Assembly (NCBI RefSeq): GCF_037969765.1
Contig: NZ_CP150207.1
Location: 248,001-312,000 of the forward strand
Direction: 5' to 3'
From: Paenibacillus sp. FSL W8-0186
Lineage (GTDB): Bacteria > Bacillota > Bacilli > Paenibacillales > Paenibacillaceae
DNA: 64,000 bases
Below the pieces are notes generated by a model. That model made no database searches, was not told the origin of the DNA, and saw only the letters and a program-made list of their open reading frames with translations. Made by a program: the position numbers and the translations under genes. Of this stretch, positions 25,589-55,241 are shown piece by piece; within the stretch, counting starts at the first letter, position 1; each line of letters opens with the position of its first letter.

Positions 25589-26087
25589 CTATATTGTGGT
25601 GCGTACCCGCTTGGGGGCACCTGAAAGGGTGAGAAATCAGTTCCAGTCCGTCCCAATAGCATTAGGGAAGGGCTCATTCAACAACTAGAAGACTTACTTT
25701 TGCGTATGCCGGATGAAGTAGAAGAAGGACAAGCGAAAGATGTTATAAAACCAAAAGAGGATACAGGGTACGACGGGTTGCGTCGTAAAGGAAGGGAAGA
25801 ATCTCCTGCCTGAGTATTACGGGTATGGAAGAGCAATGGATAATCTCGCTGTGTACTGCAAGTGATTTCAAAGTGAAAAGGAGCTTTGGCTGCTGACTTG
25901 CTGGTTTAGCAACATTGTCTAAAGGGAACAAGTTAATAGTAAGTTATTAAGGGCTTGGGGCAACCAAGCCCTATTTTTCTTGCAAATGTGGCAAAAGATG
26001 ATCTTTTTAGAGGAGTATGTGAGGGAGTGTGGAAGTAAATAGGGCAGAGTAACTATTTTTTGCATTGATTTTATAGGAGGGATTGAT
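25589..26087 (+). other. Gap with a protein-like fragment and a terminator
   Basis: A frame from about 25625 to 25813 reads like the tail of a real protein (SIREGLIQQLEDLLLRMPDE, then an acidic and basic end) but has no plausible start. An overlapping frame from 25596 (VVRTRLGAPERVRNQ) stops at 25688. This may be a frameshifted remnant. No family is recognised. Confidence 0.35.
25950..25978 (+). terminator. Rho-independent terminator
   Basis: AGGGCTTGG-GGCAA-CCAAGCCCT followed by ATTTTT. It ends a plus-strand transcript from the small membrane peptide region. Confidence 0.85.
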
Positions 26088-27143
26088 ATGGGATTTTACT
26101 TCAGGAAATCCGTATCATTTGGAGGGTTGAGGCTTAACTTTTCCAAGTCGGGGGTAGGTGCTTCCGTTGGGACGAAAGGATTCCGCTTTGGAATAAGTCC
26201 CCGAGGCAATTATGTTCGTATCGGCGCAAACGGGCTTTATTATAGAACCATGATCGGTAAAAAAAGAAATACGAGTAATACAGTACCTCGTGAAGAAAAT
26301 ATACAGACGATCCAACAATCCGATGTCGTTATGCATGAAATTGAAAGCAACGATGCGTTGGAGATTTTTGACTCAAGTTCGCAAGACCTGTTAAACGAAA
26401 TAAATAAGAAATATAATCAAATCCCCTTATGGACAATCGGTATTGTAATAACTATTCTCTTGGGTTCAACTTCATTTCTGTTTTTGGGCCTATTGTCCAT
26501 TGGCCTACTTTATTGGCTGGACATGAATAGAAGGACGACATTCATTGTATATGACATTGAGGAAGCTGCGGAATCAAGAATCCAAGCGTTTTATGATACT
26601 TTCAATGAGATCATGAGTGCTAATCACAAGTGGCATGTCTCCGCCTCGGGTCAAGTCCAAGACCGGAAATATCATGCTGGAGCATCAAGACTCCTTCGTC
26701 GGAGCTCAATTTCAATCAACTACTCGCTTCCTAAACTTATAAAAACAAATGTTAGGGTTCCCTGTGTTCCGGTGGGAGAGCAAAAACTATACTTTTTTCC
26801 TGACAAAATCTTAGTTGTACAACGAAAGAAGGTTGGAGCGGTAAGCTACGGCAGTTTAATGTTGGAATGTTCGAATACCCGTTTTATTGAGGATGGGGTG
26901 GTTCCTAGAGACACAATTGTTGTAGATCACACTTGGAAATATGTGAATAAAAATGGTGGGCCAGATCGGAGATTTAAAGACAATAAGCAATTTCCAGTAG
27001 TTCTCTATTCGGAACTCTATTTCCGGAGTGAGACTGGATTAAATGAACTGGTTCAAGTTTCGCGTCCTGATGTTGGGCAGGGTTTAAGAGAATATTTGAA
27101 CAATTCGGATTTCCTCTATGCTAAGGAGAGAGACCACAGTTAA
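26088..27143 (+). CDS. DUF4236-domain membrane protein
   Basis: This 351-residue protein begins with the DUF4236 domain (FYFRKSVSFGGLRLNFSKSG, VGASVGTKGFRFGISPRG), a glycine-rich beta module of unknown function. A variable linker leads to a two-helix membrane hairpin near residues 120-147 (WTIGIVITILLGSTSFLFLG). About 200 residues of soluble C-terminal domain follow. AGGAGGG precedes the ATG. It lies 114 bp upstream of the McrB-type gene, same strand, so it may be an accessory of that system; that link is inference. Confidence 0.8.
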   Translation: MGFYFRKSVSFGGLRLNFSKSGVGASVGTKGFRFGISPRGNYVRIGANGLYYRTMIGKKRNTSNTVPREENIQTIQQSDVVMHEIESNDALEIFDSSSQDLLNEINKKYNQIPLWTIGIVITILLGSTSFLFLGLLSIGLLYWLDMNRRTTFIVYDIEEAAESRIQAFYDTFNEIMSANHKWHVSASGQVQDRKYHAGASRLLRRSSISINYSLPKLIKTNVRVPCVPVGEQKLYFFPDKILVVQRKKVGAVSYGSLMLECSNTRFIEDGVVPRDTIVVDHTWKYVNKNGGPDRRFKDNKQFPVVLYSELYFRSETGLNELVQVSRPDVGQGLREYLNNSDFLYAKERDHS

Positions 27144-27162
27144 TTTAATGGGTGGTCTCCTT
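27130..27162 (+). terminator. Weak hairpin at the end of the DUF4236 gene
   Basis: GAGACCAC (27130-27137) pairs with GTGGTCTC (27152-27159), spanning the stop codon. Only a short pyrimidine tail follows, so some read-through into the McrB-type gene is possible. Confidence 0.5.
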
Positions 27163-27184
27163 CATTTCATGTTTGGACTATAAT

Positions 27185-27204
27185 ATGTATAACTTGCTAT
27201 ACAT
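27185..27204. promoter_or_regulatory. Inverted repeat by the McrB-gene promoter
   Basis: ATGTATA-ACTTGC-TATACAT lies just downstream of a TATAAT-like box (27179-27184), about 55 bp before the McrB-type start. It could be an operator for the restriction genes. Confidence 0.35.
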
Positions 27205-27257
27205 CACTATATCCCAATATATCTACATAAACTCAACTTTCACCTGGAGGAACAGAA

Positions 27258-29471
27258 ATGTCATTACCGACTGAATTAGCATCTATTTTTCGTGTGAAGC
27301 AAAAATCTTACAAGATGGTACTTGTACTCTCTATGATTGGCATTTGGCGTGAAACCCAGCAAAGGTTTATATCGTTAGATTCCATTGCGGAACGGTTTGT
27401 AACCTACTGCAGAGATCGGGAAGTTAATAATCTAATAGTGGATGTTCCACCGAATAGTATGGCTTCTCGCTGGTCAGAGGTGAGTGCTACACAAGTGAAG
27501 GCGATATTAGATACCCCGGTCGAGGCTCTTAGAAGTATTCTAGCTAAAAACGACATGAATGAGCTAACATTCACCAATGCGATATGGGACGGAGGGGAAG
27601 AAGTTCTGACTGAACTCGAAAGATATGCGAACCGGGAATTAGAGTCATATTATACTCAGCTTCAGTCTAACTCTTTCTCTCTGAAGGAGCACCTGAGCCA
27701 GATATTGCTTACATATAGAACGGCTAAGCAGGAACCGTTTGCGAATCATCCTCTGGGGACTGCTTTTCGAAGAACGATTCCCGAAGGAATAAGGCAATAT
27801 CCGTTCATCTCAGATCATATTCGGGTTCAAGGTTCTGTAGGTCAAGGAAATTGGGCTACCGTTCCCTGGATTGCATTGATGGATACACGTCTTACGGGAT
27901 CAACTCAATATGGCGAATATTTAGTTTATCTTTTTGCAGAGGATATGAGCTCTGTTTATTTAACTTTTATTCAAGGTGTGACGAAACCTATTCGGGATTA
28001 TGGGAGAAGGGGAGGTTACACATACCTAGAAAATAAAGTCGACCAAATCAGAAAACAGTTGCCTTTGGTTGGCTTTGCAAAGGACGATCAAATTGAGCTA
28101 ACCACAAGCGGGCTAGGACGTGATTACCAGGTATCTACCGTTGCCTACGTCCGATATGACAGCAATAATCTTCCAGAAAACGAACAGCTTGTAGCTGATT
28201 TACAACGAATGATGGAGGATTATCAGATCTATGTACGAAGTCAATTGCAGACGGCGCATGAAGAGGTAGATGACCAAATCGAGGATGAGGAGTCAGAAGA
28301 AGTGGAGACACTGTCCGTAACAGAACGGCTATCACAAATACGTTCATTTATTCGGAATAGAGGATTCTCGTATCCAGATGGATTAATAGAGAATTTCTAT
28401 CTTTCCATAAAAACAAAGCCGTTCGTCATTCTAGCAGGGATATCAGGCACTGGAAAGACAAAATTAGTGAAGTTGTTTGCTGAAGCGATGGGGGCGACCG
28501 TGCAGAATGGACAGTTCGCGCTTATCCCAGTTAGACCTGACTGGAGCGATCCCTCAGACTTATTAGGATATAAGGATTTATCAGGAACCTTTCGTCCTGG
28601 GCGATTAACAGAAGTGCTATATGAAGCATCTAAGCCGGAAAACCGCTCGAAACCCTACTTTATTTGCTTAGATGAAATGAATTTAGCAAGGGTAGAGCAT
28701 TATTTCAGCGATCTTCTCAGTGTATTGGAAACCCAGGAATGGAGAGATGGTGAAATTGCGACGGCTCCATTAATTTCAGCTGCTTCTCTATCTTCGGAGG
28801 AGGATCAGCAGAAGTACGGGGACCTATCGATTCCTGATAACGTGTATTTCATGGGTACGGTCAATATGGACGAGACAACCCATCCTTTTAGTAAAAAGGT
28901 TCTTGATCGAGCCAATACCATTGAATTTAACTATATCAATTTATTGCAGCTTCCAGATGAAGTGGTGGGAGAGACGATAACGGAAGCCGTTGCTCCGAAT
29001 TCCTTTTTGAGAAGTGATTTCCTTCAGCTTGTCGACGCAATGGAAGAGAACAGGGAGCTCATTTCAGAAACGACACAAAGTCTAGCTCAATTGAATGGAA
29101 TTCTAGAAGGCATACACGCCCATGTAGGGTTCCGAGTTCGTGACTCCGTAAGCTTCTACATGATATACAATCGCCGTGACAACTTAATGTCGGCTGATGA
29201 GGCGTTCGACCTTCAATTACTTCAGAAGATATTACCTCGAATCCAAGGGAGTAGCTCAGCAGTTCGACGAGTTCTCTTGGAATTGTTGAAGGTGTGTTTA
29301 GATCGACCTCTTGCCATCAATGAACTAATGGAGGACTTATCCCCAGTATATAATGAGGCGGAATTTCTCAACGCACAGTCGCAGATCAAATATCCGCAAA
29401 GTGCCCGCAAGATTGTGTTCATGTTACGGAGGTTAGAAGAGGATGGATTCACTTCATACTGGTTATCGTAA
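27258..29471 (+). CDS. McrB-type GTPase/AAA+ motor with DUF3578 N-terminal domain
   Basis: This 737-residue protein is the motor subunit of a McrBC-like modification-dependent restriction system. Residues ~130-330 form the DUF3578 (MrcB N-terminal) domain: LSQILLTYRTAKQEPFANHPLG and GNWATVPWIALMDTRLT. The AAA+ core has Walker A GISGTGKTKL (~393), Walker B FICLDEMNLARVEHYFSDLL (~467) and the McrB signature GTVNMDETTHPFSKKVLDRA (~535). GGAGGAACAG precedes the ATG. The nuclease gene overlaps its end by 29 nt. Substrate is unknown; McrBC relatives act on modified DNA and some variants are predicted to act on RNA. Confidence 0.92.
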   Translation: MSLPTELASIFRVKQKSYKMVLVLSMIGIWRETQQRFISLDSIAERFVTYCRDREVNNLIVDVPPNSMASRWSEVSATQVKAILDTPVEALRSILAKNDMNELTFTNAIWDGGEEVLTELERYANRELESYYTQLQSNSFSLKEHLSQILLTYRTAKQEPFANHPLGTAFRRTIPEGIRQYPFISDHIRVQGSVGQGNWATVPWIALMDTRLTGSTQYGEYLVYLFAEDMSSVYLTFIQGVTKPIRDYGRRGGYTYLENKVDQIRKQLPLVGFAKDDQIELTTSGLGRDYQVSTVAYVRYDSNNLPENEQLVADLQRMMEDYQIYVRSQLQTAHEEVDDQIEDEESEEVETLSVTERLSQIRSFIRNRGFSYPDGLIENFYLSIKTKPFVILAGISGTGKTKLVKLFAEAMGATVQNGQFALIPVRPDWSDPSDLLGYKDLSGTFRPGRLTEVLYEASKPENRSKPYFICLDEMNLARVEHYFSDLLSVLETQEWRDGEIATAPLISAASLSSEEDQQKYGDLSIPDNVYFMGTVNMDETTHPFSKKVLDRANTIEFNYINLLQLPDEVVGETITEAVAPNSFLRSDFLQLVDAMEENRELISETTQSLAQLNGILEGIHAHVGFRVRDSVSFYMIYNRRDNLMSADEAFDLQLLQKILPRIQGSSSAVRRVLLELLKVCLDRPLAINELMEDLSPVYNEAEFLNAQSQIKYPQSARKIVFMLRRLEEDGFTSYWLS

Positions 29472-31854
29472 TGGGACGGTAGAGTTACTACGGATCGAGA
29501 CCAATCTATTTAACTTATATATTCAGGGCAAGCCGTTTCACCCCACGGTAGAGGCATTACAGCTACACCGGGATGAGGAGGGTGCCCTGGTAAATGCCCA
29601 CTGTCGTATAGAGAAATTCTCCTCCAATTTAGAGATTAGCTCCATATCGGTCTTCTCGCCAGAGGAGAACGGTTTGCAAGCATGGGAAGAGGGCCAAGCC
29701 TGCGCCCCTCTTTTCTTCGAGACGCAGGCTTATGAAATTGTAGTGGAGAAAAAGCAAGATGTGGCTATTCAGTTTTATCATGAGAATAGGTATTTAAGAG
29801 AGGCGGTAAAGCCACTCGGGAAAAATATATTATCTGGTATTTTGAACTTCCAGAATGAGGTTGGATTTACGGAATTAGAGCTTCGTTTACATGGACAAGC
29901 GCTCATGCAATTACAGTTAGAAATTTTTCCGACGAAGATGGATTATAAAAAGGACTATGAAACGATACTGAGCGATGTGAATCAACAAATTTATAATCTG
30001 TCCTTTGATTTTTTGCGGAAAACCTATCATTTGACAGGGCTAAAAGATACCACCCAGCAAAGTATGACGGAGTTCTTTGCGATCTTAAGACATATGTTTC
30101 AGCATTTGGTTCAGGCCGTAGAGCGCATCAAGAATGCGCCGCACATTAAGACGAATATAGTGAATCAGAAAGTATCCTCTGGTAAGGCAAGGCATGCTGG
30201 GAAAGGTAATTTAGCTTACCTCTCCAGACATCCAGAGCTGTTTGTTAAGGATAACAAGAACGGGATTATTCATGTTAATGGCCAAAAAATGTACCCTACT
30301 CATGTATTGGAATCCAAGAAGTACATGGATTTTGATACGGGGGAGAATCGCTTTGTTCGATGGGTTTTAATACGGATTTCAAAGAAATTGCAAGCTCTCC
30401 GTATTCGATTAAAGTCCGTAGAGCGTACTTCCGATCCTCAACTATTAAGAAGTGTAGATGTTATGGAATCACAGTTGCAAAGGCTGCTACGATACGATTT
30501 TCTGGCAGTCGGCGATATGACGCACATGTCAGTATCCCTTGTTCTACAGATGGCACCCGGGTACAGAGAGGTATACCGTTGTTATCTCATGCTGATGAAG
30601 GGCCTCTCGGTTCAAGGAGATCTTATTCGCTTGTCGTTAAAGGACTTAGCCCAGTTGTATGAGTACTGGTGTTTCCTGAAAATTCACGATTTATTAAGTC
30701 GTAAATATGAACTCATCAAACAAGACATCGTCAAGGTGAATCGTTCAGGGATTTTTGTGAAGCTCGACAAAACTCAGAAATCCAAAATCATGTATCGGAA
30801 TCCCCAGAATGGTGAAGTATTTACGCTTTATTATAATTCACTACCAAGTGGAGAGCAGACCCCTACAGTCGGCCAGATGCCGGATAATGTGCTGACCTTG
30901 AAAAAAAGCGATTCTTCGATTGAATATAAATATATTTTTGATGCGAAGTATCGCTTAAATCCAGCTTATGAGGGGACTCCTTACCGAAGAATGTACACTA
31001 ATCCTGGACCTGAGGAATCAGATATTAATACGATGCACAGGTATCGGGATGCCATTGTATATGGGGATGGAAATCAAGAGTTGGAACGTAGCATGTTTGG
31101 GGCATATGTTCTGTTCCCCTATGACAATGAAGAGCAGTTTCGCGATCATAAATTCTACAAAAGTATTGAGCTCGTCAACGTGGGAGCATTCCCATTTCTA
31201 CCTAATGCGACAAGCCTGATGGAGAGGTTCCTGGACGAAATCATTATGGATAGCCCAGAGAAGGCTTATGAGAGGTCTACCCGTCCTCGTGGGACGAAGG
31301 CTTATTATCAGAATAAGTTCACAGGTAAGAATGTGTTAGTAGGCTCTTTAAGGCAAGACACGCAGCTGGAAGCTGCCTTGAAATATGGCTTTTACCATAC
31401 CCCGTTAAAGAATATCTCGAATCATCAACTGCTCACGCAGATCGAATATGTAGCCATCTATCAGTCCATCAATAAATTTGGCAGATTCGGCGAGACGGGC
31501 ATTCATTGGTATGGGAAAGTTACAGAGTGGAAAGTGTTGCGTCGTAAGGAAATCACCGAGCGTCCCGTAAGACCGGGAACTGGTGAGGAGCTGTATGTTA
31601 AGTTTTCGGTAGAGAAGTGGATAAGGAAGGCACCTTCAATTGTTCCGGGCGGTCACGGGATAAAGACCCTCTTGTTCACGTCAAAGTACATTTTTGATCG
31701 TGCGCAGGAAATCGCAGAGCTCAGACTCGAGACGGAAGAAGAGCTGAACACATGGCGTGAAGAGCGAAGACGAGGGCCGATTACTGTAGAGCTTAATCAT
31801 GATCAGGTAGATCTGGCTAGTGCTGTTGTGGATATACGGTTGCGGGAGGAGTGA
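29443..31854 (+). CDS. DUF2357 / McrC-like PD-(D/E)XK nuclease
   Basis: This 803-residue protein is the probable nuclease partner of the McrB-type motor. The N-terminal ~300 residues fit the DUF2357 region. The C-terminal part has the PD-(D/E)XK nuclease core: YIFDAKYRLN (Asp-Ala-Lys, ~500), then DINTMHRYRDAIVYG (~526) and the SMFGAYVLFPY strand. It is larger than classical McrC (~350 residues). It starts at ATG 29443, inside the motor gene, with GGAGG 10 nt upstream, so the two are translationally coupled. DNA degradation on recognition of foreign nucleic acid is the expected role. Confidence 0.87.
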   Translation: MDSLHTGYRNGTVELLRIETNLFNLYIQGKPFHPTVEALQLHRDEEGALVNAHCRIEKFSSNLEISSISVFSPEENGLQAWEEGQACAPLFFETQAYEIVVEKKQDVAIQFYHENRYLREAVKPLGKNILSGILNFQNEVGFTELELRLHGQALMQLQLEIFPTKMDYKKDYETILSDVNQQIYNLSFDFLRKTYHLTGLKDTTQQSMTEFFAILRHMFQHLVQAVERIKNAPHIKTNIVNQKVSSGKARHAGKGNLAYLSRHPELFVKDNKNGIIHVNGQKMYPTHVLESKKYMDFDTGENRFVRWVLIRISKKLQALRIRLKSVERTSDPQLLRSVDVMESQLQRLLRYDFLAVGDMTHMSVSLVLQMAPGYREVYRCYLMLMKGLSVQGDLIRLSLKDLAQLYEYWCFLKIHDLLSRKYELIKQDIVKVNRSGIFVKLDKTQKSKIMYRNPQNGEVFTLYYNSLPSGEQTPTVGQMPDNVLTLKKSDSSIEYKYIFDAKYRLNPAYEGTPYRRMYTNPGPEESDINTMHRYRDAIVYGDGNQELERSMFGAYVLFPYDNEEQFRDHKFYKSIELVNVGAFPFLPNATSLMERFLDEIIMDSPEKAYERSTRPRGTKAYYQNKFTGKNVLVGSLRQDTQLEAALKYGFYHTPLKNISNHQLLTQIEYVAIYQSINKFGRFGETGIHWYGKVTEWKVLRRKEITERPVRPGTGEELYVKFSVEKWIRKAPSIVPGGHGIKTLLFTSKYIFDRAQEIAELRLETEEELNTWREERRRGPITVELNHDQVDLASAVVDIRLREE

Positions 31855-31941
31855 ATAAAACACCCCCTTCTTATTGATTAGGCCTTAATTTGAGGCTTTA
31901 GCATCGGTGGGCGTATGCTTTTCTTGCATTGATCATACAAC

Positions 31942-31974
31942 GAAGAAGAGAGTAGAATATCTGCTCTCTTCTTC
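31942..31974 (+). terminator. Hairpin after the DUF2357 gene
   Basis: Perfect 11-bp arms GAAGAAGAGAG / CTCTCTTCTTC with an 11-nt loop, 87 bp past the stop. No T run follows, so termination is less certain. Confidence 0.55.
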
Positions 31975-32068
31975 AACGCATCATTGATAATGAATAAAGT
32001 TAACGTGAAATACAACTAATTGGAGTAATAATGTAATGTAAACCAAAAAATCCTTTAAGTCAACAGAA

Positions 32069-32275
32069 TTATTGTTCTTTTATTCCCTCTCTACTAACTG
32101 TAGCTTGTGCTGTGGATTCATCTAGTAATCTTGATGCCTCTTCGGTTAATATATTGTTTCTACTCCCGTTATCGATGACTTTTACCCCATGATTTCAGCT
32201 AAAAATGATAGAGCGTTCATACCTTCTTCGTGCTTTGTGTTATTCGCCGGAGTTTTGTATTGACTGTAGTTTCTT
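32069..32275 (-). pseudogene. Decayed protein remnant, unknown family
   Basis: Two minus-strand frames read as protein-like sequence when joined by a frameshift: one contains NYSQYKTPANNTKHEEGMNA and ends at a stop, and the next continues VIDNGSRNNILTEEASRLL and ends at TAA 32069. A stop lies just upstream as well. It suggests the 3' end of a lost gene. No family is recognised. Confidence 0.35.
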
Positions 32276-32732
32276 CTTAGCTATCCATGTTTATAACTTA
32301 CCTTTGTAATTTCCTCATTGGATTAAAAATTTACTAAAAATGGTATAATATTTTGTGCTAAAGGGCCTGAATTGGGTACATATGTAATTAAATATATTTT
32401 TAAAATAGTGGGTTTTCCTTCTTAGTAGCTTGGTTTAAGCAGGCATTCATGGTCTTAAAGACAAGAATTACATCGCAAAATGATTATCTTTTCATTGTCC
32501 TAACTCCATTTATAAAATTAGGAAGGATTTCCCTGAATGTTGTCGAAAGTACACTAACTAGAACTTTAGGCATGGAAGGGTCATCAGTAATATTATTACT
32601 CTATATCCTTAGGCAAAAAATTGCTGTTGGAAAATATGGAGTAAAGATGGGGCTCGAAATGGGTAGGATATGAATTTTGTTGAATGCAATCAGTGAAGTA
32701 TTATAAACATTAATGTTTCAGGGGGATTTGGT

Positions 32733-35700
32733 ATGGGCGATTATAGTTTCAGTAGATTCAATTCTAGAGACTTCGAGCATTTTATTCAGGCATTAACGAG
32801 GAAAATAATGGGCAACGGTACTATAATATTTGGAGATGGGCCAGATGGAGGAAGAGAGGCTACGTTTGAAGGAAGTTGTCCATTTCCAAGTGCGACCGAT
32901 AATTGGTCAGGTTATTGGGTTGTACAAGCTAAATATAAGAATCGTACTGATGATGAATCAGATTTTTCCTGGCTGAAAAGGCATTTTAAAAATGAAATGA
33001 ACAAATTTATTGAAAATAAGAAGAAAGGTTTAAAAGTTCCTAATAATTATTTGTTTTTTACGAATGCAATTCTCACAGGAACACAAGATACAGGTGGCAG
33101 AGATAGGATATCTAAAATATGCAAAGAATATGAAGATACTATACCTAATATAAAAATTTTTGGATATGACGATCTCTGTAGGTTTCTTGATGATAATAGA
33201 GATATTGCAACTACTTACTCTAGTTTTACTCTTCCTGGTGATATACTTTTTGAACTGACAAATACGTTAAAAAAATTAAATGAATGCTCAAGTAATCATA
33301 TGGATTTACTGACTAGATTTTTAGAAAAGGAGTTCAAAGAAGACTTGACGTCTCGACTAGAGCAAGGTGGCCAACTAACTGATGAAAAAGTTAATCTGGA
33401 GAAGGTTTTTGTGGATTTGAACATAGTAAGTATTGATCCCAAAAAAAGACGGATAGAGGGAGAACGCTTTGTAAAAAAGTGCATTGAATTAGGAAATAAT
33501 CTAAATAAACCTGATAATGAGAATTTAAATGAAAGCAGACTAGTGCTGATTGGAGGGCCGGGTCAAGGTAAGTCAACTCTTACGCAATTTTTAAGTCAAA
33601 TATATAGAGCATTTTTTCTAGAAAAAAACTCGGAATGCAAGATAATGGAAGAGGTATCTGGTTTTATTAAACAATTTAAAGACTTAGATATTGAGGTACC
33701 TAATTGTATTCGTTTTCCTATAAGGATTGTACTAAAAGATTACGCTGGGTGGATGGTAAAGCAAAAAGAGCAATTTTCAGTAATAGAATATTTAAAATAT
33801 AAAATTGAAGCCAAAGGTAAAGGCCAAATTAGTTTAATGGATATACGAAAGATACTAGGTTCTTTGTCAATTCTTTTTATATTCGATGGTCTTGATGAAG
33901 TGCCGGTAACCTCCAATAGAGAAGATGTTCTTAATGAAATAAATGACTTTTTAGATATAGAGTTGAGAAGAGTAAATTGTGATTCAATTGTTATTGGCAC
34001 TACTAGGCCTCAAGGCTATTCGAAAGAGTTTGATAGTACGAAATTTGATCATTATCAGTTAGCCGATTTATCAGAGGAAGATTGTCTGAAGTATCTAGAA
34101 AAACTAATGGATAACTTCGATAATTCATTGGAGCAGAAAGCTTCCTATATGAACATACTATCCAAGGCTCTTAATGATGATGGCATAAAGCGGTTAATGA
34201 AAAGTCCTCTACAAGCTACTATTATGGCGATTTTGGTAAGAAGTGGGGGTGAACCTCCAAGAAACCGATATAATCTATTCACACAATATTATACTACTAT
34301 TCTTAACAGAGAAAGACAAAAGGGTGTAGTTACGGTATTAAATGATGAGTATAATGAATACATTGATCTTATTCATTATAAATTAGGTTTTATGCTGCAA
34401 AAGAATTCAGAGGACTACGATAATCCTTCTTCAAGCGTATCATATCAGGAGTTTGGCGAGTTTGTATTAGAAATATTGGTCGATGAAATGGGTATTGATA
34501 CTGAAAAAGCAAATAAATTTAAAGAAGATATACTATTTGCAATTACTGATAGGTTGGTGTTTATTTCTGAAGTGGAGGATTCAAGGGTAGGTTTTAGTAT
34601 TAGATCAATGCAAGAATACTTTGCAGCTAATTATTATTTGCATAACCAACCAGATGAAATAATTCCTAATAAAATCAGAATTATCGCCAAAAATATTTAT
34701 TGGAGAAACACTTTCCTGTTTGCAATGGGTTACTTAGCTAAGTATAAAAGTTATTTAATTGATGTAGTTTTTTCTATATGTGGGGAATTAAACGGTAATA
34801 ATCAGGATTATGCAGCGATTACTACTGAAAAGATTACAAAGATCGGTTCTTGGTTAGCCCTGGATCTTTTATGTGAAGGAGTATTTAGGAGTAGGCAAAA
34901 ACAGGAAAATAAATTTTGTAATTTACTTGAAGAGTTGTTCAAAATAGCTCCTTCCACTAATCACTCATATTTCTCAAAATTACCCGATTCAATTCAAGAG
35001 AGATTTGTTGAAAAATTTATAGAGAAATATATTTCACAGTCTAGTAGTATCAGAGAAGCAGTAACAGCCTGGTCAATAGCTTGTTCATTGCTGATAAATA
35101 GAAATAATAGAATGGAGGATTTAATTGAAAAGTACTGGCCAAAAAATAATGATGAGGAGATTTTTCTCCTTAAATTTATGGTTCAGGAAGGGGCCAAAAC
35201 AAGTAGCTTTGTTTTAAAGAAGCTTATATCTTCCATTGAGAGAAATGAAGTAACGACATATTTTAATGAATTAGATGATGACACCTTATTGGAAAACTTA
35301 CTTGTATTTGAATTTTCCCCTAAAGTACAAGAATACCTTTTGGAAATTACATTTTTTGCGAGCTTGGATAGTTCTTTTTCTAGAAACAAACGTACTTTAG
35401 AATTTATTAATTTAATTAGTAGAAGAGAGATAATTGATTTAAGTTCTCAGGATATCTCAGTTTCTCTAATTTCAGATAGAAATAATGAAATAATAATGGA
35501 TAATTTTAAAGACATCAGTGCATATTTAATTAGTACAAAAAATGATAATCCTAATGTACCACGATTACGTGACTTATTTAAGGATTTTGGAATTGAATAT
35601 TTGTTTGCGTTATTAAATTTTACAGTGACTCCATCAGAAGAGAATTTATATTTACTTTCAGATGTACTAAATAATACGGATCAAATAAGAATGAATATAC

Positions 35701-36722
35701 TCATAAATAATAATGCTAGATTTAACTGGATAATAAAAAAACTGTTGTTGATTTATGAAAATGTTGGTCAGTTACAAAAAAACCAATTAATTAATGAAAT
35801 TGGGGACAAAAGTAACTGGATAGCATTTGAAAGAAAAGTACAGGAAGATAATTTAAATTTATCGGATAATGACTTTACTTTAATTAATTATAGTCTAAAA
35901 GGGTTTAGTAAAGGTACTTCAATATCAACATTTATTAATGATATATATAGACCCTATACTGGTAAATTTAACAGTAATATCTCACATATTTTATTTTTGA
36001 ACTTTGTTTGTTTTGGTTACTCAAACGATATTGAAAAAGAACCTTATGTAAGTGATGAAGTTTTGGATGAAATAGTAACTGCCACTATTAATATTCCAAA
36101 TGATTATAGAATATTAATTAATAGAGTTTGGGGAACATTAATACAAATAATCTCTGCGGAACAATTATTTCGATTATTACAGAAGAGAGAGATTGATATT
36201 TTTCAAGGAATTACAATAGAAGATACTATTATATTTCCATTGCTTTCAGCTAATATTAATGATAACTACCAGAAAATACTATCTGCCATTAACATTTATA
36301 ATAAAGAGACCAGTTTAATTTGTTTACTGCCTTATTTGCTTGCTCTCCAAGGGATGAATAAAGTTTCAGTAAATTTTAATCATGAATTTCTTTTGAATCT
36401 GAAGTTTAGTCAGCCAAAAAATGAAATAAGCAGACTGTTATTGCTACTGATATTTTTTCATTCTAACGAAACAGTAAATTTAAATAAATTGATTGATGAA
36501 GTGATAATTCTAGTTAAGGGTAATTACAAGATAGCTACCCATATAATTAATTTACTCGAGAAAATTAAAAGTTCATCTGCCGGTATAGTTGAAATGGTAT
36601 ACCGGATTCATTATGAATTAAACTTAAATTATTCGGAAAATATTAACATTTTATCACTTTATGAAGAGTATTTAAAGGAAATGATTGAAAATTATCCGAC
36701 AGAATTAAGAAGCAAAATTTAA
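32733..36722 (+). CDS. Nuclease-NACHT (STAND) NTPase, probable single-gene antiphage defence
   Basis: This 1329-residue protein has a restriction-endonuclease-like N-domain, an NTPase and a long C-terminal sensor. Residues 14-67 carry FEHFIQALTRKIMG, PDGGREATF (Asp38, Glu42) and VVQAKYK (Gln65, Lys67), the pattern of Mrr-type PD-(D/E)XK nucleases. The NACHT module has Walker A GGPGQGKST (~273) and LFIFDGLDEVP (~383). About 700 residues of Leu/Ile/Asn-rich helical sequence follow without a named domain, as in Avs and bNACHT sensors. AGGGGG precedes the ATG. Composition is far more AT-rich than the flanks, a sign of transfer. Phage sensing followed by nuclease activation is inferred from the family. 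Confidence 0.88.
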   Translation: MGDYSFSRFNSRDFEHFIQALTRKIMGNGTIIFGDGPDGGREATFEGSCPFPSATDNWSGYWVVQAKYKNRTDDESDFSWLKRHFKNEMNKFIENKKKGLKVPNNYLFFTNAILTGTQDTGGRDRISKICKEYEDTIPNIKIFGYDDLCRFLDDNRDIATTYSSFTLPGDILFELTNTLKKLNECSSNHMDLLTRFLEKEFKEDLTSRLEQGGQLTDEKVNLEKVFVDLNIVSIDPKKRRIEGERFVKKCIELGNNLNKPDNENLNESRLVLIGGPGQGKSTLTQFLSQIYRAFFLEKNSECKIMEEVSGFIKQFKDLDIEVPNCIRFPIRIVLKDYAGWMVKQKEQFSVIEYLKYKIEAKGKGQISLMDIRKILGSLSILFIFDGLDEVPVTSNREDVLNEINDFLDIELRRVNCDSIVIGTTRPQGYSKEFDSTKFDHYQLADLSEEDCLKYLEKLMDNFDNSLEQKASYMNILSKALNDDGIKRLMKSPLQATIMAILVRSGGEPPRNRYNLFTQYYTTILNRERQKGVVTVLNDEYNEYIDLIHYKLGFMLQKNSEDYDNPSSSVSYQEFGEFVLEILVDEMGIDTEKANKFKEDILFAITDRLVFISEVEDSRVGFSIRSMQEYFAANYYLHNQPDEIIPNKIRIIAKNIYWRNTFLFAMGYLAKYKSYLIDVVFSICGELNGNNQDYAAITTEKITKIGSWLALDLLCEGVFRSRQKQENKFCNLLEELFKIAPSTNHSYFSKLPDSIQERFVEKFIEKYISQSSSIREAVTAWSIACSLLINRNNRMEDLIEKYWPKNNDEEIFLLKFMVQEGAKTSSFVLKKLISSIERNEVTTYFNELDDDTLLENLLVFEFSPKVQEYLLEITFFASLDSSFSRNKRTLEFINLISRREIIDLSSQDISVSLISDRNNEIIMDNFKDISAYLISTKNDNPNVPRLRDLFKDFGIEYLFALLNFTVTPSEENLYLLSDVLNNTDQIRMNILINNNARFNWIIKKLLLIYENVGQLQKNQLINEIGDKSNWIAFERKVQEDNLNLSDNDFTLINYSLKGFSKGTSISTFINDIYRPYTGKFNSNISHILFLNFVCFGYSNDIEKEPYVSDEVLDEIVTATINIPNDYRILINRVWGTLIQIISAEQLFRLLQKREIDIFQGITIEDTIIFPLLSANINDNYQKILSAINIYNKETSLICLLPYLLALQGMNKVSVNFNHEFLLNLKFSQPKNEISRLLLLLIFFHSNETVNLNKLIDEVIILVKGNYKIATHIINLLEKIKSSSAGIVEMVYRIHYELNLNYSENINILSLYEEYLKEMIENYPTELRSKI

Positions 36723-37084
36723 TTTCAAAGATTAGAAATTATTATATCATTACTTTAATAATTAAATTGAGTAGTTGAGTGAATTTTAATTATCTTTGGT
36801 AGGTGGACGTGACTCTAAACTTTGATGTCGAAGGGATGATAGGTTTAGACTGAGCAGAAGAAGAATATGTGATCAAAATCATTAAACAAATTTCCAACTT
36901 GGAATCATTACTATGTTGAATGATAACAACATAGTAATGATTCGTTTGATATGAATTCCGATTGAGATAGGCTGTTACTTACCTCTATTCACCAACCCAA
37001 TTACCCCACCTTTCTATTATTACGCATTTCCGTACCACATATCGCCTCTTCTTCTGCTATCCTATAAAAAAAGGAGGCTCCCCC
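36723..37084. other. Gap after the NACHT gene
   Basis: No gene is visible. It holds the 17-bp hairpin at 36902-36943 and, at its right end, the AAGGAGG site of the next gene. Base composition returns to the surrounding level within this gap, marking the right edge of the AT-rich block. Confidence 0.6.
36902..36943 (+). terminator. Perfect 17-bp hairpin downstream of the NACHT gene
   Basis: GAATCATTACTATGTTG (36902-36918) pairs perfectly with 36927-36943 around an 8-nt loop. Only GTTTG follows, so it may be a terminator or a relic of an element end. Confidence 0.55.
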
Positions 37085-37387
37085 ATGCAATCCCTACTCG
37101 AATCCCTATACTACGGTCATCTCATTCCCGAAGAACAATTGGTTCCCAAAGATCCCATGTATCGCAAAAAGGGCAGAGAACTGTCCGAGAAAATAGAAGC
37201 CTGGAAAAAGAAGCTGTCCAGCGATGAGTTTGCCGAGCTTGAGGCGCTGTTGGACTTGCAGCAGCAGATTCAGAGTATGGAGATGACGGCGGCGTTCACC
37301 TACGGCTTCAAGTTGGGAGCGGTTATGATTATCGAAATCCACCTCGATCATGGGGTAGGTAATAACACCAAACATGATGAGGAATAA
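37085..37387 (+). CDS. Small DUF6809-like protein
   Basis: This 100-residue soluble protein has features I associate with the DUF6809 family of Firmicutes: a start LLESLYYGHLIPEEQLVPKD, a middle KIEAWKKKLSSDEFAELEAL, and the closing EMTAAFTYGFKLGAVMIIEI. The role is unknown; such genes often sit near mobile or conjugative DNA. AAAGGAGG lies close before the ATG. The family name is from memory and not verified. Confidence 0.7.
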   Translation: MQSLLESLYYGHLIPEEQLVPKDPMYRKKGRELSEKIEAWKKKLSSDEFAELEALLDLQQQIQSMEMTAAFTYGFKLGAVMIIEIHLDHGVGNNTKHDEE

Positions 37388-45989: not shown

Positions 45990-48362
45990 TTGAATAAGGT
46001 GGATCCTAGCCGAGTTGGGGGCTTGGCACGCGACTTGGAGCGTTTGGAGCGCACAATGGAGAACGGAATTACGGGAATGTCCAGGGAATTAAACCGGCTA
46101 ATAAGCGATGTGGAGGCGGCATATTCCGATCCGTCCGAGCATTACGTGCGATCTGCGGCACGCGAAGCCAGCGGCCTGCTGCGGGAAATCGGCAAGCTGG
46201 CCGAGCGGATTGACGAGCAGATGAGGAAGAAGGTTCAGGCTTTACGCTATGCGGAAAATACATACATAAAGGCAGAGAAGGATTCGGCAAAGGCGACCGG
46301 GGTGAAAAAATCAGCGACGTTTACCCTCAAGGGGACGATTCAGAGCTGGTTTCAGCGCTTCATGGAGAAAGCGAGACAGAATGTCGCTGATCCAGACGAG
46401 GCTTCGTCTGCGGAGTCAAGGCCATCGCTGCTGCAATGGATCAAGGGCAGCTTGCTGGAGCTTCAGGACGCCTCTTTGGTGCAGCGTCTCGACCCGGTGA
46501 AGGAGGATGAGCGGATCGCCTCTTTGCTGCAAATTTTGGACACCGGGACGGCGAAGGAGCAGGTGTGGGCGCGGGAGGAGCTCGAGGCCATCGCTTCAAG
46601 CTTCAAAGAGATTGCCCGAAACCAAGCGGCCTATAAAATATATGCGATTTACAATAATGAACTGTATATGGGTTATGCACATCGGTCTGCCCAGCAGCAA
46701 AGGGAGCAGCTAGCGAAGCTCGGCGTCGCTGAGGAATGGTATAAGTCCGGGGTCAGCTTGGCCGTGTTCTATAAAGGCTCTCCGCTGGATGCCTGCGAAT
46801 ATAACCCGCTGAAACAGGATCTGTCCGCGATGCCGAAAGAGAGCGAGCTGCGCTTGATAATTGCAGCCGGTATGATTAATCCCCTCTACCGGGAATGGGC
46901 GAAACTCCACTATGACGCGATTGCGGCGGCGGTGCGTCAAGCGGCAGAGCGGCGCAGGGAAATGCAGGCGCTGCTGGATGAATACAATCAGGCGGTTCCT
47001 GCGGAGGATATCCGCAACATGCAGCAATATTTGAAGGACATGAACATCTACCAAGGCGAGATTACGGGCGAATATAATCAGGAATTCCTGATTGCTGTAG
47101 CCGGTTACCAGCATATCGCGAACACAGTGAGCTCCATGGCGGCAGTTCGGCGCGATTGGTTCGGATGGGAGATGTTCGAGGTAGATGGGAAGATCACGAA
47201 GGACCTACTGGATTTGGCCCGCTCAGAAAGAGGCTCGGGAATTCGCAATGATCCGAACCTGAAAACCGGCGGATTGACCGCTGCCGTAACGATCGTAGGC
47301 GTTGGAGACGGCATTGTCAGTCAATTGTTTGAAGACGTAAAGGACTTGGCCGAGTTCGCCGTCAATTCCAATCCGGCAACCCTGGGATTCTGGACAGATA
47401 CCGTGCCGGGATATTACGCTATAGGGGAAGCAATTGCGACCGGTGAGCTGACGATCCATGATATGAAGAAGCTGCTCGGCGACGCCGCGGCAGAGGAGTT
47501 CGTGGTTCCTTTCCAGGATATCATCGAGCTGCAGCCGAAGGTTCTTTCCGGCAAAGCCACCTATGAGGAGAGCGTAAGATACGGACGAGCTGTGACGAAG
47601 GCGTTCTTTGCGATCACGGTAGTAGAAGGCGCCGCCAGAGCGGGAGCCAAATTCTCCGGCAAGACCGTGAAGGAGCTTGTGAAGAATGTGAAGGAAGCGG
47701 CGCAAACGCGGCCGCAAGTATCGTTTGCTACCCCCGGTGGCCCTGAAGTCCCTGTCCGGGATATGGACATGCCGAAGACGGAGCCGCAGTTCTCTAAGTC
47801 TAAGCCTGATTCGGGATCAGGCGGCGGGAAGATGGATTCTGTTGAGGGGGCGGGTAAGGCTATTGAAAATGCACTTGCAAAAGGAAGTGCAAATACCTGG
47901 GAAAAGTTCCTAGCTGAAAATCCAGGGAAAAGTATTGAAGAGGCCTCAAGGTCTTATATTAAGTTAATAGAAGAACAATCTCCATGGCCTGAGGGATTCG
48001 ACATAACAGTACATAAAACTACACTAAAACCAGGGGATACATTCCAGATGGCTCTGGATAGTACACAACCAGTAACATCGCCAGGAAATTTTGCTACGTT
48101 TGATAACATTCCTAATATAGATTTTGTTAGGAACAATTTGGCCGTCAAATCAGATTGGAAAGTCGATTGCAGCAAAGTTGTTACTTATAAAGTGAAAGAA
48201 GGTGTGGAACTACCAGTAATCAAAGGGCCTGTTGGACCTCAGATAGATCTAAATGCTGATAAATATTTACCTGGTGGAAGTAATCAAATACAAATGCTAC
48301 TTCCTAGAGGTACAGACAAGATGGATTACCTAGAGGTTGTATCAGTAAGGTCAATCAAATAA
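45990..48362 (+). CDS. Polymorphic toxin with helical N-domain, pretoxin region and C-terminal toxin tip
   Basis: This 790-residue protein starts at TTG after ATGAGGTT. Residues ~1-110 form a helical region typical of WXG/LXG-like export domains (LARDLERLERTMENGI; LLREIGKLAERIDEQMRKK). A middle region and a Gly-rich pretoxin-TG-like part (~435-570) follow. The last ~175 residues differ in composition and end KGPVGPQIDLNADKY, PGGSNQIQML and LEVVSV. This end pattern resembles the TNT/ADP-ribosyl-type toxin fold, an inference. GC drops sharply near 47850, where the tip begins, as in tip exchange. The next gene, 16 nt on, is the likely immunity gene. Contact-dependent or type VII secretion is inferred. 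Confidence 0.83.
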   Translation: MNKVDPSRVGGLARDLERLERTMENGITGMSRELNRLISDVEAAYSDPSEHYVRSAAREASGLLREIGKLAERIDEQMRKKVQALRYAENTYIKAEKDSAKATGVKKSATFTLKGTIQSWFQRFMEKARQNVADPDEASSAESRPSLLQWIKGSLLELQDASLVQRLDPVKEDERIASLLQILDTGTAKEQVWAREELEAIASSFKEIARNQAAYKIYAIYNNELYMGYAHRSAQQQREQLAKLGVAEEWYKSGVSLAVFYKGSPLDACEYNPLKQDLSAMPKESELRLIIAAGMINPLYREWAKLHYDAIAAAVRQAAERRREMQALLDEYNQAVPAEDIRNMQQYLKDMNIYQGEITGEYNQEFLIAVAGYQHIANTVSSMAAVRRDWFGWEMFEVDGKITKDLLDLARSERGSGIRNDPNLKTGGLTAAVTIVGVGDGIVSQLFEDVKDLAEFAVNSNPATLGFWTDTVPGYYAIGEAIATGELTIHDMKKLLGDAAAEEFVVPFQDIIELQPKVLSGKATYEESVRYGRAVTKAFFAITVVEGAARAGAKFSGKTVKELVKNVKEAAQTRPQVSFATPGGPEVPVRDMDMPKTEPQFSKSKPDSGSGGGKMDSVEGAGKAIENALAKGSANTWEKFLAENPGKSIEEASRSYIKLIEEQSPWPEGFDITVHKTTLKPGDTFQMALDSTQPVTSPGNFATFDNIPNIDFVRNNLAVKSDWKVDCSKVVTYKVKEGVELPVIKGPVGPQIDLNADKYLPGGSNQIQMLLPRGTDKMDYLEVVSVRSIK

Positions 48363-48378
48363 AAAGGGGATTAAATAT

Positions 48379-48936
48379 ATGGGTATTGATAATTTTAAAT
48401 GGGATGATCAGGATCGAAGTGTTTCCTGGTTGTATAATGGAAAACATATAACTAAAAAGTATGACAATGCATATTTTGCTTCTTTAAATAATGAAAAACA
48501 ATATGTAGTTGTTGAAGCAGGGCAAAACTATTCTCCGGACCTAATTTTTTATCTTTCATTTGAGGGTAAACAGATTTTTAATTTAGATAAAGTTAATGAT
48601 AAGATCAGTTGGCAATTACAAGATCATTTAATTCAAGTAAATTGTAAGAATATACTGAATGCTCAAATTTACCCGGAGCAGGGTGTTGCAATCGTTATTT
48701 CCAAAGAAAATCAGTTTGAGAAAGTGTTAAAAGGGTATGCAATGGATGGTACATTGTTATTTGTTAAACATCCTCCTCAAGGTTTTGATTTTAGTTATTT
48801 ATCGACCTTAAAGAATCAGCCGTCTGTTGTTTGTGAAGGAGATGAGGATCATACTGATGTTTATGGAAGAAGTGGTTGGAGCTTTATTATTGATACAAAG
48901 ACAGGTGATATGACCAAAGGGAATTTAGCATATTGA
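48379..48936 (+). CDS. Probable immunity protein for the toxin
   Basis: This 185-residue soluble protein begins MGIDNFKWDDQDRSVSW and is beta-rich with many aromatic residues. It lies 16 nt downstream of the toxin, with AAGGGGA before the ATG, and shares the toxin tip's AT-rich composition. It has no membrane span or signal, fitting a cytoplasmic inhibitor. No family is recognised; the immunity role rests on position and composition. Confidence 0.72.
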   Translation: MGIDNFKWDDQDRSVSWLYNGKHITKKYDNAYFASLNNEKQYVVVEAGQNYSPDLIFYLSFEGKQIFNLDKVNDKISWQLQDHLIQVNCKNILNAQIYPEQGVAIVISKENQFEKVLKGYAMDGTLLFVKHPPQGFDFSYLSTLKNQPSVVCEGDEDHTDVYGRSGWSFIIDTKTGDMTKGNLAY

Positions 48937-48945
48937 ACTAAGGTG

Positions 48946-48992
48946 AAAGGCCTATTCCAGCTTGAATCACAAGTTAGGAATGAGCCTTTTTT
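48946..48992 (+). terminator. Terminator of the toxin-immunity operon
   Basis: AAAGGCCTATTCC pairs with GGAATGAGCCTTT, followed by a T run, immediately after the immunity stop. Confidence 0.8.
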
Positions 48993-49021
48993 GCATGTCC
49001 CTAATCAAAGGGGAGGAGATT

Positions 49022-53920: not shown

Positions 53921-54520
53921 TTAATCAGTAATTTTTTTAAGCTCAAAAATAGTTGCCTCTGATAACAAGATGAGCCTATCGTTATTAACAACAAAAAAAC
54001 TTACACTTACAGGTATGCTAAGTTTTGTAGAAGGGTCACTTATGTCTATTGCTTTTACTACATCAGTTATATTTAAGTCTGGGATATCTATTTTATATAA
54101 TCTATAAAAAGAGTCAGAGTTATAGCATGTCGCTGTAATCTCATATAATGGATTTTTAAGTTCATGCTGATAATCAGTATAGTTTTTAAGTCCCTTTGAT
54201 GAAAAAAAGTCTTTTTTGATTATTAATTCATCTCCAATAAATTTTTTCCCGGTTGGATATTCAGAAGCATCATTATATGAATTTGCAAATCCTAAAAGCT
54301 TCTCAACTTTCCAAGTTCCATAGAAATATTTTTCAGTTTCACTATCCAAAAGTATACGTTCTACAAGACAAGATTCGGATGTTTTTTTTGGAATAATAGA
54401 CTCATCCGTTTCAAATTTAGTCTCACTAGAAGTATCTGGATTTGATGTCATTTCAACATTTCCACAAGCCGATGCTAGCATCAACATTATCATAATACAA
54501 ACCAATAATATTTTTTTCAT
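53921..54520 (-). CDS. Lipoprotein of unknown function
   Basis: This 199-residue protein has a lipoprotein signal (basic start, hydrophobic core, ASAC lipobox at ~19). An acidic, Ser/Thr-rich linker follows, then a soluble domain with WKVEKLLGFANSYNDA and GKKFIGDELIIKKDF. This layout resembles the widespread Firmicute lipoproteins that begin 'YGTWKVEK' with an unknown ligand. Composition is AT-rich, unlike the MerR and UvrA-like genes on either side; it lies in the repeat-bounded insert. Confidence 0.75.
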   Translation of the reverse strand: MKKILLVCIMIMLMLASACGNVEMTSNPDTSSETKFETDESIIPKKTSESCLVERILLDSETEKYFYGTWKVEKLLGFANSYNDASEYPTGKKFIGDELIIKKDFFSSKGLKNYTDYQHELKNPLYEITATCYNSDSFYRLYKIDIPDLNITDVVKAIDISDPSTKLSIPVSVSFFVVNNDRLILLSEATIFELKKITD

Positions 54521-54543
54521 ATTTCACACTCTTTTTTATTTTT

Positions 54544-54633
54544 TTATTGTGTCACAATCTCTTCAGACATCAAGCTCTCCATTGGAGCGTTATCCCAACA
54601 GTTCCCTTTCTGGCCCATGGAACACATCGTTTG
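54544..54633 (-). pseudogene. IS3-family transposase remnant
   Basis: Read on the minus strand, 29 codons end at TAA and contain SMGQKGNCWDNAPMESL. This is the hallmark near the C-terminus of the IS3/IS150 integrase (S-x-x-x-K-G-N-C-x-D-N-A-x-x-E-S). The rest of the transposase and any terminal repeats are absent. It marks past insertion-sequence activity inside the repeat-bounded insert. Confidence 0.8.
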
Positions 54634-54872
54634 AGCACTATCGGCTCACTACGTAGTGTTGGTGATGTCGCTTACCTTTTTTCATTAAAAAACACATTGA
54701 AATCTGCAAAGGAGATCCGTCTTGTTAGACATTGGATACGAAGATATTATCCCTGGTCATTGTATGTATTTTTGGTACTATGGTATATAATTCCATGTAA
54801 CAACCCCATCCCCTTCCTTACGGAAATTAAATTTACGTTATTAATCTATTATTTAGGAGGCCTTTGGATTCA

Positions 54873-55241
54873 ATGAATAAATATGCCAACATTATTTGTA
54901 GTATAATTCTTTCTGCTTCCTTTCTAGGAGGATGTTATTTGTTAGCTGAGAGAGGAAGAAATATCCCTAATGACGAAGCTGAAAAAGTGATTAGCGATAG
55001 TAAAACCATACTTACAGAGAATGAACTGTCCGATTTTCTTGGGATCACAACCAGTGATTTAAAGAACTTGATTGATTCGGATAGAAAAAAGAGAGAGGAA
55101 TTCAAAGGGGGAATATACGACAGGTATTCGTTCTTACCTATCATGGAGCTCCCTGGCGGACATAGGGTTTTTCTAAAAAGTGAAATTGAAAACTGGGTAC
55201 AATACCACTCTTTAAAAGTGATTATACCGATGGATGAGTAA
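54873..55241 (+). CDS. Exported or lipid-anchored helix-turn-helix-like protein
   Basis: This protein of about 122 residues has an N-terminal hydrophobic segment ending FLGGC, a plausible lipobox. A domain like excisionase/MerR helix-turn-helix follows (LTENELSDFLGITTSDLKNL, HRVFLKSEIENWVQYH). A DNA-binding-like fold behind an export signal is odd, so a protein- or peptide-binding role outside, or a membrane-tethered domain, are alternatives. GGAGG lies 12 nt before ATG 54873; TTG 54864 is an alternative start with 3-nt spacing. AT-rich, inside the insert. Confidence 0.65.
   Translation: MNKYANIICSIILSASFLGGCYLLAERGRNIPNDEAEKVISDSKTILTENELSDFLGITTSDLKNLIDSDRKKREEFKGGIYDRYSFLPIMELPGGHRVFLKSEIENWVQYHSLKVIIPMDE

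Follow-up and report, generated by a model that had tools for sequence, protein, structure and literature searches.

A nuclease-NACHT-solenoid protein of Paenibacillus and its phylum-spanning family of candidate NLR-like immune receptors

The described systems closest in plan to the protein discussed here are bNACHT25 and bNACHT32 (clade 6), which, according to PMC12169576, have an N-terminal PD-(D/E)XK nuclease, a central NACHT and a C-terminal sensing part. They degrade DNA when the cell is infected and depend on an active-site residue; bNACHT32 is activated by a phage coat protein. Both bear an NCH1 helical domain, and their protection requires DnaJ. The Avs1-Avs4 proteins (AVAST, antiviral STAND NTPases) join a nuclease effector to an NTPase of the STAND (signal transduction ATPases with numerous domains) superfamily and, according to PMC12931631, cut phage and host DNA once the terminase, the portal or another phage protein has been recognised, leading to altruistic death. 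A third group, described for the P4 hotspot by Rousset et al. 2022 (PMC9122126), comprises STAND proteins whose C-terminus carries repeats and whose N-terminal effector (TIR, SIR2 or Mrr_cat) is exchangeable. We describe a gene of this kind from Paenibacillus sp. FSL W8-0186, found in a 64,000-nucleotide stretch of contig NZ_CP150207.1 (positions 248,001 to 312,000, assembly GCF_037969765.1), hereafter the window. Its product is probably a self-contained bacterial immune receptor resembling the nucleotide-binding leucine-rich-repeat receptors (NLRs), in which a solenoid would sense the invader, the NACHT module would oligomerise and a nuclease would cleave DNA. The basis is the domain plan, invariant catalytic residues, an NLR-like predicted fold, placement in two defence hotspots, the lack of a recurrent partner and fast C-terminal divergence.

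Domain plan of the nuclease-NACHT protein

The open reading frame (ORF) begins with ATG, runs for 1329 codons without an internal stop and is preceded at 32720-32727 by the Shine-Dalgarno-like sequence AGGGGGAT. Its features, in window coordinates, are as follows.

32733..36722, + strand: single gene for the nuclease-NACHT-solenoid protein, 1329 amino acids (ORF list); intact, and present once in the 5.66-Mb genome
32733..33257, + strand: N-terminal PD-(D/E)XK-type nuclease domain, residues 1-175 (conserved residues, predicted core, weak Mrr_cat)
33300..34982, + strand: NLR-type NACHT module, residues 190-750, with nucleotide-binding domain (NBD), helical domain 1 (HD1), winged-helix domain (WHD) and helical domain 2 (HD2), from the predicted structure
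33552..33578, + strand: Walker A, GGPGQGKST, residues 274-282; K280 in 85 of 85 sequences
33873..33902, + strand: Walker B, LFIFDGLDEV, residues 381-390; D385 and D388 in 83 of 85 each
34983..36719, + strand: putative sensor at the C-terminus (residues 751-1329); the model shows an all-helical solenoid of ARM/HEAT-like type

The putative active site of the nuclease consists of D38, E42 and Q65-x-K67, plus E15 in helix 1, and the predicted structure has a helix-strand-strand-helix-strand core inside residues 11-143. Conservation was read from 85 aligned sequences, namely the window protein and 84 relatives from 99 loci (left out were L001, L003 and L004 as duplicates, L005 as a NACHT-only match, and 11 loci whose match began after residue 15). 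D38 and K67 are identical in all 85 and Q65 in 84; position 42 holds E in 57 sequences and D in the other 28, and residue 15 is E in 74 and Q in 11. Invariance throughout the alignment extends to G277, G279, K280 and T282 of the P-loop. This conservation is in part a selection effect, because the relatives from genomes were fetched with two patterns, one spanning residues 33-42 and the other being the Walker B motif. As a control, the 36 rows without the pattern at residues 33-42 were inspected, and D38, E/D42, Q65, K67 and K280 are present in every one. Conservation of the catalytic and P-loop residues is well above chance, and partly selected by the fetching pattern.

A preliminary description of the locus, made from the sequence alone, had called the nuclease Mrr-like. 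The PD-(D/E)XK residues and the predicted core bear out the nuclease. Pfam Mrr_cat is absent from the matches of the window protein, and a targeted nuclease scan found it weakly in 5 of 25 family members (best expect value, E, 0.011). The PADLOC model Aga_REase-TIR, which we take to be a short-Argonaute partner nuclease, weakly matches residues 3-169 (E 1e-3). The ~560 residues behind the nuclease are modelled as NACHT-HD1-WHD-HD2, the Pfam NACHT score is borderline (25.1 bits for the whole protein and 26.7 for residues 1-765, with a cut-off of 26.7), and the best structural matches of the model are animal NACHT-NLRs at 13-16% sequence identity. The proposed nuclease-NACHT plan holds: the motifs lie where they had been placed (DGGREATF from residue 38, VVQAKYK from 63 with K67, GGPGQGKST from 274 with K280, LFIFDGLDEV from 381), the residues are conserved and the predicted fold is NLR-like. 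Compared with the animal proteins NLRP3, NLRC4 and NOD2, the effector is a nuclease instead of a death-fold domain and the C-terminus a helical solenoid instead of leucine-rich repeats.

Is this a family that already has a name? The searched copies of PADLOC-DB 2.0.0, Pfam and NCBIfam yielded no full-length model for it. The single NCBIfam hit to the window protein (E 0.022) is irrelevant, and none of the Protein Data Bank (PDB) sequences match it. When residues 1 to about 765 of 50 members, the window protein included, were scanned, PADLOC PDC-S73 matched 33 and Aga_REase-TIR 21, and the NCBIfam model EruA matched one (E 8e-4). Among seven relatives scanned at full length, PDC-S73 and Aga_REase-TIR each matched four and two had no model at all. 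The likeness to these two models lies in the N-terminal nuclease and the P-loop; in the full-length scans each of the four PDC-S73 matches falls within either the P-loop or approximately residues 1-185, three of the seven proteins have none, and there is no full-length relation. Nor did our literature search, which covered a minority of subscription papers and no supplementary tables, turn up a description of the family.

Kinship with Avs, which the preliminary description had raised, did not find support. None of the PADLOC or NCBIfam models that match the window protein or the 49 relatives scanned with it (again residues 1 to about 765) is an Avs model, and no Avs fold appears among the 50 structural matches listed, most of them animal NLRs. 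Both libraries presumably contain Avs models. The best structural matches of the protein are animal; by plan it would work like bNACHT and Avs proteins, and membership in Avs is without support. The resemblance to bNACHT concerns plan and fold: both the central STAND-superfamily NACHT module and the N-terminal PD-(D/E)XK effector are present. Described bNACHT clades have C-terminal domains such as SNaCT or, in bNACHT25 and bNACHT32, NCH1; the C-terminus of the present family is a predicted solenoid of ~580 residues (~200 in a short class), which in the window protein has no Pfam match. The STAND NTPase, C-terminal repeats and an Mrr_cat effector also recall the proteins of Rousset et al., compared here by published description; those are reported from the P4 hotspot, whereas the present family is seen in the P2 hotspot. 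The window protein belongs to a widespread, unnamed family of an already known kind, with a bNACHT/Avs-like plan.

A fast-changing C-terminus in a phylum-spanning family

The boundary between module and putative sensor lies at about residue 750. The preliminary description had assigned ~700 residues to a part without named domain; such a C-terminus does exist, but it spans about 580 residues (751-1329), the ~560 before it being NACHT-HD1-WHD-HD2. Its namelessness was upheld in PADLOC, Pfam and NCBIfam: the Pfam scan of residues 690-1329 of the window protein gave no match, and that of 45 C-terminal parts of members a single DUF7639, in one of them. The 84 relatives fall into a class of 52 with 1206-1375 residues, a class of 25 with 901-992, and seven of 388-870 and 1127 residues, several of which are fragments. 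The C-terminus measures ~580 residues in the long class and ~200 in the short, mostly actinobacterial one.

In every one of the 1378 pairs that the window protein and 52 long relatives form, identity is lower in the C-terminus than in the module. In the 21 pairs with 60-80% module identity the means are 65% for the module and 32% for the C-terminus, and even the closest pair, L026 and L067 from Streptomyces, has 83% against 47%. Because length is kept and close pairs can be aligned, the pattern suggests a single scaffold that changes fast, and not the swapping of unrelated domains. A separate case is the pair L050 and L054 (Tolypothrix and Scytonema), in which the modules are near-identical and the C-terminal parts far more different, one being shorter; synonymous divergence (dS) is 0.195 in the C-terminal part and 0.041 in the module. 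Recombination within the sensor, or decay, are possible explanations of that difference.

The protein is not peculiar to this genome; its family is spread over many phyla. A search with an alignment as query found at least 168 relatives in genome contigs (80 kept) and nine loci in IMG/VR viral contigs. On a tree of 81 module sequences (the four fragments L052, L056, L068 and L089 excluded), 11 phylum labels require 23 changes against a minimum of 10, which agrees with transfer between phyla, without proving it. Most short members form one clade of 24 rows within the long family, actinobacterial by label or plasmid host except for one Vibrio, and the size class needs five changes on this tree. 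Closer to home, matches occur in 4 of 394 Paenibacillaceae genomes including the source genome, one covering only residues 3-730, and at class level in 2 of 398, of which one is again the source genome and the second matches in the NACHT part only (E 1e-7); the gene is therefore patchy. The full-length relatives, at ~40% identity, lie in the Paenibacillaceae genomes G010 and G350 (the latter being the Paenibacillus soyae locus L011), and another of this kind sits on a Priestia megaterium plasmid.

Defence hotspots around the gene and its relatives

In the window, the gene occupies an interchangeable slot, as comparison with a same-species genome (G073) makes clear.

32582..37068, unstranded: interchangeable slot (BLASTN breakpoints); in G073 its place is taken by ~7.7 kb encoding Lamassu LmuA/B/C and Mokosh MkoC
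32495..32581, unstranded: 87-bp stretch in common with G073 (86.5% identical by BLASTN), immediately before the exchange point
27258..29471, + strand: McrB-like AAA protein, MrcB_N plus AAA_5 (Pfam; PADLOC PDC-M26A, E 5.6e-53), shared with G073
29443..31854, + strand: McrC-like DUF2357-PDDEXK_7 nuclease (Pfam, E 2.2e-63 and 6.3e-49)
36902..36943, + strand: possible terminator, a hairpin whose 17-bp stem is perfect, 180 bp past the stop codon (consensus scan of 31855-37100, with 4 sites found against 1.9 expected)

G073 has no match to the nuclease-NACHT protein. The right flank resumes after the 7.7-kb replacement, in which LmuA, LmuB, LmuC and MkoC match nearly the whole length of their PADLOC models; of ten island proteins scanned with PADLOC, four have no match and one a weak one. 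Since Lamassu and Mokosh stand there in place of the NACHT gene, the slot is an exchange point for defence systems. The McrB-like/DUF2357-PDDEXK_7 pair (window 27083-31770) is kept in G073 at 91% DNA identity without the NACHT gene, which is therefore separable from it. The whole G073 island (L117:1883-16626) comprises Lamassu, Mokosh, a PDC-M11A candidate and two dCTP-deaminase-like genes, and its DNA has no BLASTN counterpart in window 20001-45000 except for short pieces. Such pieces at window 25655-25846 match three separate places of the island (83-95% identity), as if they were remnants of an earlier cassette. Upstream of the NACHT gene, window 26088-31854 holds a DUF4236 gene followed by the McrB-like and DUF2357-PDDEXK_7 pair, a type IV restriction-like set matching the PADLOC candidate PDC-M26.

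The gene has a guanine-plus-cytosine (GC) content of 30.0%, against 48.2% in the window outside 32582-37068. Its relatives are likewise below their local flanks: 31% against 54% in G010, 30% against 42% in G350, 30% against 36% on the Priestia plasmid and 36% against 50% in Escherichia coli H2. The suggestion that the gene was acquired gains from this low GC, from the other genes in the slot of the sibling strain and from the few family genomes with a match. AT-rich patches at window 48001-49000 (34% GC) and 54001-55000 (33%) may be other acquired genes.

Some relatives occupy a second kind of hotspot. The Lelliottia member L070 and the viral contigs L092, L094 and L095 have flanking genes in common, and the L070 flanks match the capsid-terminase-portal side and the gpA side of P2-like phages, phage P2 itself included. 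The gene of a Klebsiella member finds matches at 65% over 60% in 3 of 5426 E. coli genomes; in strain H2 the relative sits inside a P2-like prophage, with an incomplete portal gene on one side and the replication endonuclease on the other, and the SC487 record holds only the replication side of these surroundings. Relatives in E. coli and Lelliottia are placed in the gpQ-gpA interval of P2-like prophages, which Rousset et al. 2022 (PMC9122126) report as a hotspot with validated anti-phage systems. Together, the two kinds of defence hotspot point to anti-phage defence, as read from location and architecture. The gene has no recurrent partner, in keeping with the preliminary description of a single-gene system: within up to 5 kb a side, no neighbour family occurs in more than 7 of 85 loci, 73 of which have at least 2.5 kb on both sides. 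Directly upstream of the G350 member is an OLD/AriA-like AAA ATPase gene (L120:6196-8160; PADLOC AriA, E 1.6e-18).

Proposed function and alternatives

How might such a protein act? Because of the analogy with bNACHT25/32 and Avs1-4, we propose that at rest the NACHT-HD1-WHD-HD2 module would hold ADP and keep the N-terminal nuclease apart from its neighbours. Binding of a product or consequence of infection by the C-terminal solenoid would then free the module for nucleotide exchange and, subsequently, oligomerisation. The clustered PD-(D/E)XK domains would cut DNA, and the infected cell would presumably be killed or arrested and the invader genome destroyed.

Several points weigh against a role as anti-phage receptor. 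Remote homology to defence proteins counts for little, as only 1 of 24 units that had it together with low predicted scores protected (PMC13092281), and the P2 hotspot holds non-defence cargo too (PMC9122126). At the G010, G350 and Priestia loci, 8 of 10 neighbour proteins have no PADLOC match, those matched being the OLD/AriA-like ATPase and a reverse transcriptase only. None of 50,697 phage records match, and IMG/VR gave no match to the window protein alone, though the alignment query found its nine loci there. The nuclease fold is assigned from predicted topology and motifs. Finally, the fast C-terminal divergence could also be relaxed constraint, and misalignment can lower C-terminal identity in distant pairs.

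The alternative that survives best, though unlikely, is defence aimed at plasmids or other incoming DNA, with the solenoid or nuclease recognising DNA or DNA ends rather than a phage protein. The gene adjoins McrBC-like restriction genes, and 59 plasmid records match (one alone covering at least 80% of the query, several only the NACHT part); on the other hand, the plan and fold match NLRs that sense proteins, a fast-changing C-terminus suits protein targets better than DNA, and placement in P2-like prophages fits phage-phage competition. Less probable still is a NACHT regulator, or a decayed and inactive effector, without a role in defence. NACHT proteins with attached inactive nucleases exist, but here the catalytic residues are kept in 85 of 85 sequences across eleven phylum labels, also in the rows without the nuclease pattern, and the ORF is intact and its length conserved. 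That the protein serves as a subunit in the McrBC-like type IV restriction system next to it, 0.9 kb downstream of whose McrB/DUF2357-PDDEXK_7 pair it lies on the same strand, is hardly credible and largely refuted: a functional unit with these neighbours is contradicted by G073, which keeps the pair with Mokosh and Lamassu in place of the NACHT gene, and by the lack of a recurrent neighbour family.

If the protein is taken as an NLR-like receptor, its family, which spans phyla and is tied to two defence hotspots, is now delimited, and the point is located at which a conserved signalling module gives way to a fast-evolving sensor. A further, tentative suggestion, which we hold to be somewhat doubtful, is that the family may constitute a receptor chassis used throughout the bacteria, with a near-frozen nuclease-NACHT half and a solenoid of preserved length that is continually remade by rapid substitution and local recombination. 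A single ancestral fold would then serve members for the recognition of different invader proteins, without unrelated sensor domains being swapped in. If true, this would be a bacterial counterpart of the diversification of NLRs and their leucine-rich repeats.

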